From contig NZ_VJOK01000001.1 in NCBI RefSeq assembly GCF_013302895.1, positions 996,135-1,060,134 of the forward strand: a stretch of 64,000 nucleotides of DNA. The letters run 5' to 3'. The DNA is from Streptomyces albus subsp. chlorinus. Lineage in GTDB: Bacteria > Actinomycetota > Actinomycetes > Streptomycetales > Streptomycetaceae. The notes below the pieces were generated by a model. The model was not told the origin of the DNA. It saw only the letters and a program-made list of their open reading frames with translations, and searched no databases. Shown one piece after another: positions 4,921 through 34,861 of this stretch (the stretch's first letter is position 1; every line of letters starts with the position of its first letter). The position numbers were made by a program, and so were the translations under genes.

Positions 4921-5193
4921 TCAGAGGTGAGCGTATACGTCGTCGAGGGAGATGCCCTTGGCGGCCATGAGCACCTGGAGATGGTAGAGGAGCTGGGAGA
5001 TCTCCTCGGCCGTACGCGTATTCCCCTCGTACTCGGCGGCCATCCAGACCTCGGCGGCCTCCTCCACGATCTTCTTCCCGATGGCGTGCACGCCCTGCGC
5101 GGCGAGCTCGGCGGTGCGGGAGGTGGCGGGGTCGCCGTGGACGGCCTTGTGCTCCAGCTCGGCGAAGAGCTGCTCGAATGTCTTGTTCGCCAT
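4921..5193 (-). CDS. hisE: phosphoribosyl-ATP pyrophosphatase HisE
   Basis: A 90-residue stand-alone PRA-PH that hydrolyses phosphoribosyl-ATP to phosphoribosyl-AMP, the second step of histidine synthesis. It is an all-alpha MazG-like fold with the metal-binding signature [17 protein letters not shown]. The ATG at 5193 gives the family's usual N-terminus ([10 protein letters not shown]); an in-frame GTG 12 nt upstream is an alternative. It sits 34 nt after ribH, so it may be read from the riboflavin operon. Confidence 0.96.
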
Positions 5194-30396: not shown

Positions 30397-32556
30397 TCAG
30401 CCGATGTCGAGCGGGTCGACGCGCACGTACGGGGCCGGGCCCTCCCTGCGCGCCAACCGCCCTGCCAGCGCCGTCTTCAACGCGGCCGCCAGTGCGGCGC
30501 CGCTGCCCCGTGGCACCCGTACCAGGGCCCGCTCCCACTGCTCCCCGGGTGGCGGGTCGCCCGGACGGCGCGGCCGTCCCGGCTCCGGAACCGGCAGCGG
30601 AACCGGTCCCAACACCTGTGCACCCTCGGGCAGTCCGGCCTCCCACGCGGAAGCGAGCAGCGCGGCCACCGCCTGCGGAGGACCGGTGACCGCCGCCATC
30701 CGCGAGACCGGCGGGAAGCCCAGCTCCGCCCGGTCCGCCAGCTCCCGCAGCGCGTGCCCGGCGGGATCCCAGCGCACCAGAGCCTGCACCGGCCGCATCG
30801 ACTCCTCCGCGACGACCACCACACTGCCGCCCTCACCCTGCGGCCGCACCAGCGAGGCGGCACCCAGCCAGCGGCGCAGCGCCTCCTCTCCCGCACGCAG
30901 ATCGGGGCGCCCCAGCAGCGCCCAGCCGTCCAGCAGCAGCGCGGCCACGTAGCCCTCACCGCCCTCCGGCACCGGCTCGGCGCCCGGCGTGGCGACGACC
31001 AGCGCGGGACGGGCCGGCACCGACTCCAGCACATGCTCTCCGCCCGAGGTCCGCACCGGCACCGAGGGGAACGCGCGTCCCAGCTCCTCCGCCGTACGCC
31101 GGGCACCGATGACGCTGCCGCGCAGCCGTACCCCTCCGCACATGGGGCAGCGCCACTCCGGCGTCTCACGGGCGCACCAGCCGCAGCGCAGGACCGTGCC
31201 CTCGCCCGCCGCCTCCAGCGGCCCGGAACAGTGCGCGCACCGGGCCGGCTCCCGGCACCGCTCGCACACCAGCCGGGGCACATAGCCGCGGCGCGGAACC
31301 TGCACCAGCACGGGGCCCCGCTCCAGCGCGTCCCGCGCGGTGCGCCAGGCGAGGCTCGGCAGCCGGGCGCTGCGCGCCGCCGGGTCCCGCCCCTCGTCCC
31401 CCTCGGCCGCCGTACGCACCCGGGGCATGACCGCCCGCACCGTCTCCCGGTCGGCCGCGAGCGGGCGGGCGAACCCGGACTCCACCAGCTGGGCCGCCTC
31501 CACGGTGCACCCGTGCGCCCCGAGCAGGAACGCCGCCTGCTCGGTGACGGCCCGCTGGAGCAGCACCTCTCGGGCGTGCGGCTGGGGGGCGCGGTCCTCG
31601 CTGTGACCGCTGTCCCCGTCCTCCCAGATCGCGGCGAGACCGAGGCGGCGGACCGGCGCGAACATCGCCGCCCGCGTCCCCACCACGGCCCGCACCGCGC
31701 CCCGGTTGACGGCCAGCCAGCGCCGGTAGCGCGGTTCGGGCCCGGCCTCGGCGGTCAGCAGCACATGCTGCCCCTCACCGACCAGCGCGGTGAGGGCCGC
31801 GTCCACCCGCGCCGCCGACTTCCCGTCCGGCAGGACGGCCAGCGCGCCGCGCCCCGCCGCGAGCGTCGTCGCCAGGGCACGGGCCAGTTCGTCCGCCCAG
31901 CTGTGCGCGCCGGGGAGGGCCGTCCAGACGGCGCGGGGCGTGCCCTTCTCCGCCAGCGCCCGGAGGAAGGCGGGGCCCTGCGGATAGCGTGCCCAGCCGC
32001 CCGGCTCGGGCACCGGAGGTCGCGGCGGCCGGCGCGGCGAGGGCTGCGTCTCGGCCTTGGCCCGCCGGGGCGGGACCGCCAGTTGGACGACGTCGGCGAG
32101 GGAGCCCGCGTAGCGGTCGGCGACGGCCCGGCACAGCTGGAGCAGCTCCGGGGTGAGGACCGGCTCCGGCGAGAGGACCTGGGCGATCGGGGCGAGCCGC
32201 CCCGTGAAGTCGGTGTCGGCACGCCGCTCGACGATGAACCCGTTGATGAGGCCCCCGCCCTCGCGGCGCCCCTCGCGCTCCCCGGCGCCGAACCGCACCC
32301 TGACGCGGACTCCGGGCTGCGCCTCCTCGTCCATCGCCGCCGGCACGGCGTAGTCGAAGAAGCGGTCGAGATGGACCAGCCCCTTGTCCACCAGCACCCG
32401 CGCCACCGGCAGCCGGGCGGCCGACTCGGCGCCCCGCCAGGTGCGGGGCTTGGCCCGGGGCCGGCGGGCCTTGTGCTCGCGGACCGTCTCGCGGATCAGC
32501 GCGAGCTGTTCCGGCTGCCCCTGCCGCTCCTCGCCCTCGCCGTCGTCCCTGCTCAC
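30397..32556 (-). CDS. priA: primosomal protein N' PriA, helicase-motif-deficient type
   Basis: A 719-residue PriA homolog, which in other bacteria restarts stalled replication forks. The N-terminal DNA-binding domain (LPVARVLVDKGLVHLDRFFDYAVP) and the paired CxxC zinc region (CERCREPARCAHC, LRCGWC, RCPMCGG; eight Cys) are intact. The Walker A of true PriA (GxTGSGKT) is replaced by LPGAHSWADELA, and the DEEH box by WEDGDSGHSED. Actinobacterial PriA proteins are known for lacking recognisable helicase motifs and are annotated as probable replication restart proteins without helicase activity. The GTG at 32556 (VSRDDGEG) is the likely start. Confidence 0.92.
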   Translation of the reverse strand: MSRDDGEGEERQGQPEQLALIRETVREHKARRPRAKPRTWRGAESAARLPVARVLVDKGLVHLDRFFDYAVPAAMDEEAQPGVRVRVRFGAGEREGRREGGGLINGFIVERRADTDFTGRLAPIAQVLSPEPVLTPELLQLCRAVADRYAGSLADVVQLAVPPRRAKAETQPSPRRPPRPPVPEPGGWARYPQGPAFLRALAEKGTPRAVWTALPGAHSWADELARALATTLAAGRGALAVLPDGKSAARVDAALTALVGEGQHVLLTAEAGPEPRYRRWLAVNRGAVRAVVGTRAAMFAPVRRLGLAAIWEDGDSGHSEDRAPQPHAREVLLQRAVTEQAAFLLGAHGCTVEAAQLVESGFARPLAADRETVRAVMPRVRTAAEGDEGRDPAARSARLPSLAWRTARDALERGPVLVQVPRRGYVPRLVCERCREPARCAHCSGPLEAAGEGTVLRCGWCARETPEWRCPMCGGVRLRGSVIGARRTAEELGRAFPSVPVRTSGGEHVLESVPARPALVVATPGAEPVPEGGEGYVAALLLDGWALLGRPDLRAGEEALRRWLGAASLVRPQGEGGSVVVVAEESMRPVQALVRWDPAGHALRELADRAELGFPPVSRMAAVTGPPQAVAALLASAWEAGLPEGAQVLGPVPLPVPEPGRPRRPGDPPPGEQWERALVRVPRGSGAALAAALKTALAGRLARREGPAPYVRVDPLDIG

Positions 32557-32830
32557 AGGGCCAGTCTGGCAGACCGCACCGACACCGCGGCCGGCCACGA
32601 TACGCGGCAGCGCGGTCCCCGGGACGGTGCCGTCGAGCATGGCGAGGAACGCGTGGGCGAGCAGCGCGCCGGTCGCCGTACGGCGCCGGTGCGGCCGACG
32701 GTGTCGTGGGGGTGCTCGGCGGTGGGCGCGGCGGGGCGGGGCCTGCCGGAGCGGTGCTCACATCGTCCGGCATCCGCCGGGTGAGGGACGCGCCCGAGGT
32801 CTGGTCGGCCGGGGCCCGGGCATGCACCCG

Positions 32831-32915
32831 GCCATCGCCTTGGGCCGCTCGGCCACACCGGCCGCCGAGGCCGGCGGCGGGATTCGAACCCGCGGAGAGA
32901 CGACTCTCAAATGGA
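32831..32915 (-). tRNA. class II tRNA-like element with permuted halves (3' half before 5' half)
   Basis: Reading the minus strand, the order is: possible anticodon-stem 3' strand CCAT (32914-32911); variable-arm hairpin GAGAG-TCGT-CTCTC (32908-32895); T-arm GCGGGTTCGAATCCCGC (32893-32877) with a perfect 5-bp stem and B-box; acceptor 3' strand CGCCGGC (32876-32870); 7-nt spacer (32869-32863); acceptor 5' strand GCCGGTG (32862-32856); TG at positions 8-9; class II D-arm GCCGAGCGGCCCAAGGC (32853-32837) with a perfect A-box; G26; and ATGG (32835-32832), which pairs with CCAT. The two acceptor strands pair over 7 bp with one G-U. No normal 5' half lies upstream and no T-arm lies downstream. No CCA is encoded, and no 7-nt anticodon loop with U33 can be assembled, so it may be a remnant of a tandem tRNA pair or a non-decoding RNA. 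Confidence 0.6.
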
Positions 32916-32999
32916 GGAAGGAGCCCCCGCCCGCGCACCGGGCGCGTCCGCGTCCACCGTAGGGGACGGGACGGAGGAGGGGCGAGGGACTTTCACCCG

Positions 33000-33043
33000 C
33001 CGAGGGCCCGGCACCCCGCCAGCATGGGGTGCCGGGCCCTCGG
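33000..33043 (-). terminator. strong hairpin terminator downstream of metK
   Basis: A perfect 18-bp stem pairs 33000-33017 with 33026-33043 around an 8-nt loop, 34 nt after the metK stop. No U-tract follows. It separates metK transcription from the tRNA-like element. Confidence 0.88.
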
Positions 33044-33076: not shown

Positions 33077-34285
<1,209 letters not shown>

Positions 34286-34861
34286 ATCGCTCCCTGGGGT
34301 TGCAGCGGCTGCTGGCTGAGCATGGGGCGGACCGGTCGGGGGCTGCGCCCAAGCACGGTCCGCGGCCAGTTTATCCATCTCCGCCCGCATCCAATCACGG
34401 ACTCTCGAACTCCGAGACGACCATGACCTGCTCGATCCAGGCTCCAGCGCGGCCGGAGGGCCGCCGGAGATCCGGACAAGTCAGGGAGTGTCGGTCGGCC
34501 GGGCCCTCCGTCAAGAGTGCCGTTCCGGCCCTGTTCGACTACTTCCGGCCCACTCGGGCAAGATGTCGATTTCCACCGTACGACCCCCGGAAGAGGCCCG
34601 GACAGCCCCCGGAGGCAAACCCTCCGCCCCGACCGGCCCTCGGCCGCACCGGGTGCGGGTGCCCCGCGGCGAAACCGTCAAACCGGGGTTCCGGGGCGCC
34701 CCGGGGACTCCCGCCGCCTCCGAGCGCCACCGGCCACCGCTCCGGCCCTCCGCCCCACCGTGACCGTACGTGACCACACCCGCCCCAGCCGTCACCACGC
34801 GGGGGCTGCCGGCGGCGGCACCCGGGAAGACCCCGGCGCCACCGCCGCCGCACGCCGGATG
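34286..34861. other. 576-bp coaBC-metK intergenic region
   Basis: No gene is supported. It must hold the metK promoter and leader (minus strand) and the end of the coaBC transcript. A weak stem (34811-34818 with 34842-34849) just after coaBC could aid termination. Open frames here lack any family resemblance and Streptomyces-like codon-position bias in a convincing frame. Confidence 0.5.

Follow-up and report, generated by a model that had tools for sequence, protein, structure and literature searches.

A predicted tRNA-mimicking Y RNA encoded behind metK in Streptomyces

The window analyzed here, a 64-kb (64,000-nucleotide) stretch of Streptomyces albus subsp. chlorinus DNA, very probably encodes, on the minus strand between metK and priA, a bacterial Y RNA of the tRNA-mimicking (YrlA) type, judging from its sequence and pairing; it has a probable promoter of its own behind metK, and its partnership with Ro60 is proposed by analogy. 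The preliminary description of this DNA reported a circularly permuted class II tRNA-like module, and all elements that it claimed on the minus strand are present, base for base, at the claimed positions. This module is the middle of a larger RNA with pairing ends and a second helix, which had not been remarked upon. The features are listed below, with the evidence in parentheses; R1 is the covariance model, and A3 and A5 are the alignments, introduced in the next section.

32786-32949, minus: whole predicted Y RNA gene, 164 nt (R1 match at 32790-32945 plus four perfect end pairs)
32939-32949, minus: end stem, 5' strand, 11 bp (sequence; covariation in A3 and A5 for the inner 7 pairs, as helix 1)
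32786-32796, minus: end stem, 3' strand (sequence; covariation in A3 and A5)
32924-32931, minus: predicted Ro60-binding helix, 5' strand (R1 alignment and sequence; 7 of 8 pairs)
32807-32814, minus: predicted Ro60-binding helix, 3' strand (R1 alignment; sequence)
32911-32914, minus: CCAT, 5' side of the anticodon-stem-like pairing (CCAC/GTGG, CCAG/CTGG, and TCAC/GTGG in relatives; the corresponding helix covaries in A3)
32895-32908, minus: variable-arm-like hairpin GAGAG-TCGT-CTCTC, 5 bp (sequence; group-level hairpin test)
32877-32893, minus: T-arm GCGGGTTCGAATCCCGC (sequence; helix 3 in A3 and A5 covariation)
32870-32876, minus: acceptor stem, tRNA-3' strand CGCCGGC (sequence; helix 4 in A3 and A5)
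32863-32869, minus: 7-nt spacer, the loop closing the acceptor stem (sequence)
32856-32862, minus: acceptor stem, tRNA-5' strand GCCGGTG (sequence; helix 4 in A3 and A5)
32837-32855, minus: T8-G9 and class-II-like D-arm with a 3-bp stem (sequence; tRNA comparison)
32832-32835, minus: ATGG, 3' side of the anticodon-stem-like pairing (sequence; pairing in relatives)
32956-32961, minus: candidate -10 box TACGGT (ends 6 nt before the predicted 5' end; TAnnnT conserved)
33001-33042, minus: strong hairpin between metK and the Y RNA (sequence)
33077-34390, minus: metK, upstream neighbor (annotation of window genes)
30397-32640, minus: priA, downstream neighbor (annotation of window genes)

Architecture of the RNA and its permuted head

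The end stem joins the 5' and 3' ends of the RNA through 11 perfect pairs. The four of them that extend beyond the R1 match were read from the window sequence, and the same extension is seen by eye at three other loci (L315, L322, and L323). An internal loop sets off the inner helix, which is the predicted Ro60 site on sequence and pairing; its mismatch falls at a column that is unpaired in 17 of the 23 model members, and the GGTGCG motif of this region is retained in the window RNA.

Within the head, the acceptor stem has 7 pairs, including one G-U. The CCAT/ATGG pairing is not significant in any single sequence. The hairpin preceding the T-arm is likewise weak when taken singly (per-sequence P values of 0.02 to 0.72); the combined P value is 8e-4 for the 11 metK-linked RNAs, which are related sequences, versus 0.46 for the 23 others. 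Set against the tRNAs of this genome (54 distinct calls), the D-arm most resembles those of tRNA-Tyr and tRNA-Ser, the best match being tRNA-Tyr (90% of 21 nt), and no recent donor tRNA for the module was found among these calls. On its sequence, the head looks like a long-variable-arm type of tRNA mimic.

ARAGORN identifies no tRNA in the 64-kb window and none in the unrotated window RNA. When the RNA is rotated, as the preliminary description had suggested, or read as a circle, the program returns a cloverleaf, provided that an intron is allowed in the anticodon loop. Among 34 RNAs read as circles (the 23 of A3 and the 11 of A5), cloverleaves were obtained for 33, including the window RNA, with L167 being the sole miss, as opposed to 2 of 1,360 shuffled controls (dinucleotide shuffles, or plain ones where the dinucleotide walk failed). 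Thus, the permuted tRNA arrangement is real and more than a chance resemblance. The anticodons that ARAGORN assigns to these 33 circular readings vary without any pattern.

A TAnnnT box is found 11 or 12 nt upstream of the predicted 5' end in 15 of the 17 first or single copies at metK/priA loci, a distance that counts the four extra end-stem pairs in the group to which the window RNA belongs. At the matching distance, such a box precedes all five Glu-like Y RNAs at unlinked loci, 8 of the 22 Ro60-side copies (some of which are not the first in their row), and none of the 9 second copies. The hairpin at 33001-33042 is likely the end of the metK transcript, and, as far as can be read from the sequence, the window Y RNA is probably transcribed from its own promoter behind metK. 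Two known RNA families are also present on the minus strand of the window: the Streptomyces-metK RNA (RF03063; 34290-34408, 96.2 bits), which overlaps the start of metK, and the FMN riboswitch (RF00050; 10007-10137, 95.8 bits).

Covariation and co-occurrence with Ro60

The initial search, with a 161-base stretch against 61 genomes, returned chance matches along with loci that contain the same module in a longer RNA. The front part of these longer RNAs reads CCGGTGCGnAGGC..CGGTTACTTC and the back part CCGCCG..GATCTCGGG, and several of the loci sit, by their coordinates, just before a gene matching TROVE, the Ro60 domain. Alignments of all types together made with MAFFT (A1 and A2) misplaced the 3' stem; R1 was therefore built from alignment A3, which consists of 23 Streptomyces Y RNAs with an assigned structure, 18 of them encoded beside Ro60, 5 elsewhere, and none between metK and priA (by coordinates). 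A3 leaves out the CCTACTTC type, the long-headed RNAs of L014 and L074, the first copies of L035 and L038, L090, the short Y RNAs that have no tRNA head, and every copy linked to metK.

In the window, which was thus held out, R1 has one clear match, of 50.9 bits after a 21.9-bit composition correction, with an E value of 1.7e-10 (R1 E values are rough by the tool's own note); the runner-up scores 19.2 bits. The match is full length and spans model positions 1 to 138.

The preliminary description had proposed a search for compensatory changes in relatives, and the paired strands are indeed kept with such changes in both A3 and A5, an alignment of 11 metK-linked tRNA-type RNAs; the signal is weaker in the five closest sequences. 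In A3, two-sided changes occur at 18 of 31 pairs, and 95.8% of the cells are paired, neither of which is reached by any of 500 shuffles; sliding the partner by 1 to 3 columns lowers the pairing to 33 to 55%. For the helix that corresponds to the anticodon stem, which was chosen after looking at the alignment, 77.7% of the A3 cells are paired and 19 changes are two-sided, values that none of 500 shuffles attains, whereas two further measures are unexceptional (reached in 116 and 146 of 500 shuffles). In A5, 96.1% of the cells pair, and neither this value nor the 20 two-sided changes nor the covariation score is reached in 500 shuffles; the number of pairs with a two-sided change (17 of 500) and the number of pair types (261 of 500) are less exceptional. 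The five closest sequences give 11 of 500 shuffles for three measures and 47 and 249 of 500 for the others.

TROVE matches were found in 68 of 121 Streptomyces genomes. The best R1 match has an E value below 1e-8 in 66 of these 68 genomes and in none of the 53 genomes without TROVE (Fisher P = 2e-32, a statistic that ignores shared ancestry). The 1e-8 threshold was chosen once the gap separating the worst counted match (1.7e-9) from the best one in a Ro60-free genome (1.1e-7) had been seen, and the counts, which were made with strict search filters, include some genomes that supplied R1 training sequences. The two exceptions in the 121-genome search, G062 and G065, have Ro60 but no strong R1 match. 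Weak R1 matches, with E values of ∼1e-5, occur in most Ro60-free genomes, and 117 of the 121 genomes have some match at an E value of ≤0.1. The one kind of weak match that was examined, in G013 (G013:C1:2941498-2941592, model positions 18 to 117), is a tandem tRNA-Asn pair with no end stem. A rough count by text pattern gave 72 of 121 genomes, with 32 of 121 for the reversed control; some of the pattern matches are not Y RNA-like.

Full-length R1 matches in L215 (Actinomadura terrae) and L217 (Thermocatellispora tengchongensis), located just before Ro60 by coordinates, represent Y RNAs beside Ro60 outside Streptomyces as well. In L010 (G045, a member of the same order), two consecutive permuted tRNA heads that lack the GGTGCG front motif precede a reading frame that appears Ro60-like by eye; these are perhaps a divergent type of Y RNA.

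An RNA recognized by R1 lies right behind metK in at least 9 of the 115 genomes with a metK match (G000, G013, G024, G064, G073, G077, G115, G119, and G125). In G007, the RNA is beside priA, about 5.4 kb from metK. A DNA search of 392 genomes adds G152, G242, G245, G253, G261, G308, G322, and G348, with metK on the same stretch. At nine of the scanned loci, metK is followed by a tandem of RNAs, first a short one and then one of the tRNA type. All 17 genomes in which an R1 match was found behind metK encode TROVE. Among 25 hand-picked (not random) genomes that were included in both the TROVE and the R1 searches, 22 have both TROVE and an R1 match at an E value of ≤0.001, and three (G112, G162, and G392) have neither. 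These three were picked for having a metK that is 94 to 98% identical to that of the window over 199 residues and similar flanks but no Y RNA behind it. Streptomyces diacarni, with a 98.5% identical metK, carries the RNA, so nearness alone is not decisive for its presence.

The closest counterparts of the window RNA, found via Ro60, come from S. smyrnaeus, S. oryzae, S. spirodelae, and S. diacarni (63.8 to 70.8 bits); the S. smyrnaeus record and G322 are probably one genome, as they share the same coordinates. At L315, L322, and L323, metK is upstream of the RNA, and priA was not found within the stretch examined; the contig of L324 begins too near the RNA to show metK.

The genome that contains the window encodes Ro60 (G000:C1:1184977-1185201, E value of 4.6e-14 for TROVE, with the start codon chosen by hand near C1:1185939). 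Its product, P0001, matches PF05731 and PDB entries 9l5y and 9kop, both named TROVE domain-containing protein (E value of 2e-30). The window Y RNA is not near this gene but about 156 kb away from it. At an E value of ≤0.001, R1 finds three matches in the whole genome, namely the window RNA and a pair immediately upstream of the Ro60 gene, at C1:1186006-1186186 (L073). Both of the latter are short, one with a lone T-arm-like hairpin and the other without any, so that no detected Y RNA of this genome other than the window copy has a full tRNA head. The RNA at positions 5101 to 5187 of L073 (minus strand) lacks both an acceptor stem and a D-arm but has the T-arm-like hairpin CAGGTTCGAATCCTG; it perhaps represents a reduced tRNA head.

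Known Y RNAs and alternative readings

Several features of bacterial Y RNAs that are relevant here have been described. The Salmonella YrlA structure (PDB 6CU1) gives circularly permuted superpositions with tRNAs (PMC11472068), and YrlA is a substrate of DusA and TruB (PMC8394870). In Deinococcus, the conserved stem part of the Y RNA binds Rsr, and the part with the T-arm-like hairpin binds PNPase (PMC6181284; also PMC3997798). Rsr binds the lower stem of Yrl RNAs in Salmonella and Mycobacterium smegmatis, and the accumulation of Y RNAs needs Ro60 in a range of species (PMC4726728). The rsr, yrlBA, and rtcBA genes of Salmonella form one operon (PMC7790460), and yrlA-like RNAs occur in some mycobacteria (PMC9569102). 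The partnership of Y RNAs with Ro60 and their circularly permuted mimicry of tRNA are thus already published, and the preliminary description, in knowing of no established bacterial example of such a layout, passed over the bacterial Y RNAs, for which a permuted resemblance to tRNA is on record (PMC11472068 and PMC8394870).

The window RNA resembles YrlA (PDB 6CU1, RF02553) in having a Ro60 end stem and a circularly permuted head with T, acceptor, and D arms (PMC11472068 and PMC8394870), but it is encoded away from Ro60 and scores far below the RF02553 cutoff. Its class-II-like D-arm and variable-arm-like hairpin may be further differences from YrlA. The Streptomyces Y RNAs encoded upstream of Ro60 share its end stem, inner helix, and permuted order, and R1 finds both groups; however, the A3 training Y RNAs, 18 of 23 of which are beside Ro60, have 4-bp D-stems (98.9% of the cells paired) and no clear hairpin before the T-arm. 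These class-II-like features may make the window RNA a variant. On sequence alone, it can also be likened to the Deinococcus Y RNA of the Rsr-PNPase complex (RYPER), whose conserved stem binds the Ro60 orthologue, while the region with the T-arm-like hairpin binds PNPase (PMC6181284).

Published bacterial Y RNAs were found via their nearness to Ro60, which is a way of finding them rather than their defining property. Chen and others reportedly recorded, in 2014, Y RNAs near Ro60 in over 250 species. Among the titles listed by the literature searches, which did not extend to most subscription papers, none concerned Streptomyces Y RNAs, and these searches turned up no description either of a Y RNA gene that follows metK at a distance from Ro60 or of a class-II-like head. 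A tRNA-like head that does not decode is also a property of tmRNA, including its permuted forms, but neither ARAGORN nor Rfam detects a tmRNA within the 64-kb window.

The Rfam YrlA model matches the window RNA with only 15.6 bits (E value of 1.8, model positions 31 to 62 of 114), well under its cutoff of 69 bits, and gives no match at an E value of ≤0.001 anywhere in this genome. That cutoff is reached by none of 14 Streptomyces loci and none of 296 genomes of the class, so that such genes can stay unannotated even in a heavily studied genus. Below the cutoff, YrlA and R1 match the same places in G080, G242, G091, G131, G111, and G013 (YrlA scores of 41 to 56 bits, E values of 1.4e-11 to 3.7e-7), and YrlA also has matches in 6 of 14 control genomes and at a tandem tRNA-Asn pair. 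As this pair is matched by both models, the tRNA part alone is not specific. An Rfam match to tRNA-Sec (26.6 bits, below the cutoff of 47) was rejected because its alignment has missing arms. In L002, L014, and L024, ARAGORN calls tRNA-Asp, tRNA-SeC, and tRNA-Lys across Y RNAs; hence, false tRNA calls arising from Y RNAs are possible in Streptomyces.

Among the alternative readings, the one that fares best, although it is still improbable, accepts the family assignment and holds that the window copy is losing its function in this species. Its score, 50.9 bits, is the lowest of the close group, its TACTTC motif has become TCCTTC, it is very GC rich, and its folding energy in single-sequence folding is on par with that of shuffled sequence (z = -0.10). 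However, pairing is preserved throughout the T, acceptor, and D stems, at all 11 positions of the outer helix, and at 7 of the 8 positions of the inner one, and the -10 box is unaltered. TCCTTC is also found in L169, and the genome, which retains Ro60, has no other full tRNA-type Y RNA among those detected.

The preliminary description had left a choice between a permuted or non-decoding RNA and a remnant of a tandem tRNA pair. Its first option holds insofar as the RNA is permuted and non-decoding but not in the sense of a permuted tRNA gene. A gene whose transcript is cut and circularized into a decoding tRNA, as happens in some algae and archaea, would account for the order of 3' half, short spacer, and 5' half and for the cloverleaf obtained upon circular reading. 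Such a gene is, nevertheless, very hard to reconcile with predicted anticodons that vary without pattern among relatives, with a would-be leader and trailer that form a covarying helix, and with an occurrence that tracks Ro60. Processing through a bulge-helix-bulge motif by a tRNA-splicing endonuclease is not known in bacteria. The algal and archaeal permuted tRNA genes, which share with the window RNA the order of 3' half, intervening sequence, and 5' half, mature into tRNAs by that route (PMC3978253), whereas the window RNA does not look like a gene of this kind.

Equally poor are the prospects of the second option, a leftover of a tandem tRNA gene pair that has lost its outer halves through decay. 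In a tandem tRNA arrangement, a 3' half does come ahead of a 5' half, and both R1 and YrlA weakly match the tandem tRNA-Asn pair (L304). However, that pair matches R1 only at positions 18 to 117, with no end stem, as opposed to positions 1 to 138 for the window RNA, and the two halves of the module are held together by compensatory changes. An unpermuted tRNA gene at this place in close relatives, which the preliminary description had named as a sign of a local rearrangement, was looked for with ARAGORN in three metK/priA loci (L001, L003, and L008), and no tRNA was found there. The module could nonetheless descend, far back, from a tandem tRNA pair. The pair in L304 (1486-1637, minus strand) is of a kind that recurs as a false match and hints at how a permuted head might have come about.

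Finally, a 3'-UTR-derived regulator or terminator-like element of metK, which the position directly behind that gene might suggest, is scarcely credible given the strong hairpin that separates the RNA from metK, the -10-like box at a constant distance, and the homologous RNAs beside Ro60 and elsewhere.

Proposed role of the metK-linked Y RNA

On sequence evidence, the two ends of the window RNA are folded back on each other through the end stem and the inner helix. The head between these helices, with its T-arm, acceptor stem, D-arm, and anticodon-stem-like pairing, takes the shape of a circularly permuted tRNA, its acceptor end closed by the 7-nt loop. The absence of an encoded CCA, the odd discriminator, and the missing U33, which the preliminary description had counted against function, would fit a Y RNA, where the spacer would loop the acceptor stem and the "anticodon stem" would run on into the end stem. 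By analogy with studied Y RNAs, the stem region would bind the Ro60 protein of this genome, and the tRNA-like head would present Ro60 to a partner that recognizes the tRNA shape (PNPase in the case of Deinococcus) or gate the Ro60 ring. In this way, the RNA would steer Ro60-linked processes, either the decay of structured RNA or its quality control.

What appeared to be an oddity thereby becomes a clear case of permuted tRNA mimicry by a bacterial RNA that would act together with Ro60, a protein whose human relative is a lupus autoantigen. A Y RNA that is encoded far from Ro60, and behind metK only in genomes with Ro60 (17 of the 17 checked), offers a genetic handle on the tRNA-like head.

More speculatively, the dispersed Y RNAs of Streptomyces might imitate different tRNAs, each steering Ro60, from a separate promoter, to its own tRNA-recognizing partner or damaged tRNA class; this proposal is tentative and more doubtful than not. 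It is based on the likeness of D-arms, judged from single examples against the tRNAs of this genome: the heads appear Ser/Tyr-like (class II) behind metK, Glu-like at the other unlinked loci, and Met/His-like or Leu-like beside Ro60.

The Y RNAs with tRNA-Glu-like D-arms (L002, L005, L081, L083, and L104; L005 was compared and the others were assigned by eye) have their own -10 box. By coordinates, L002 is some 490 kb from Ro60, and L005, L081, L083, and L104 are on contigs other than that of Ro60.
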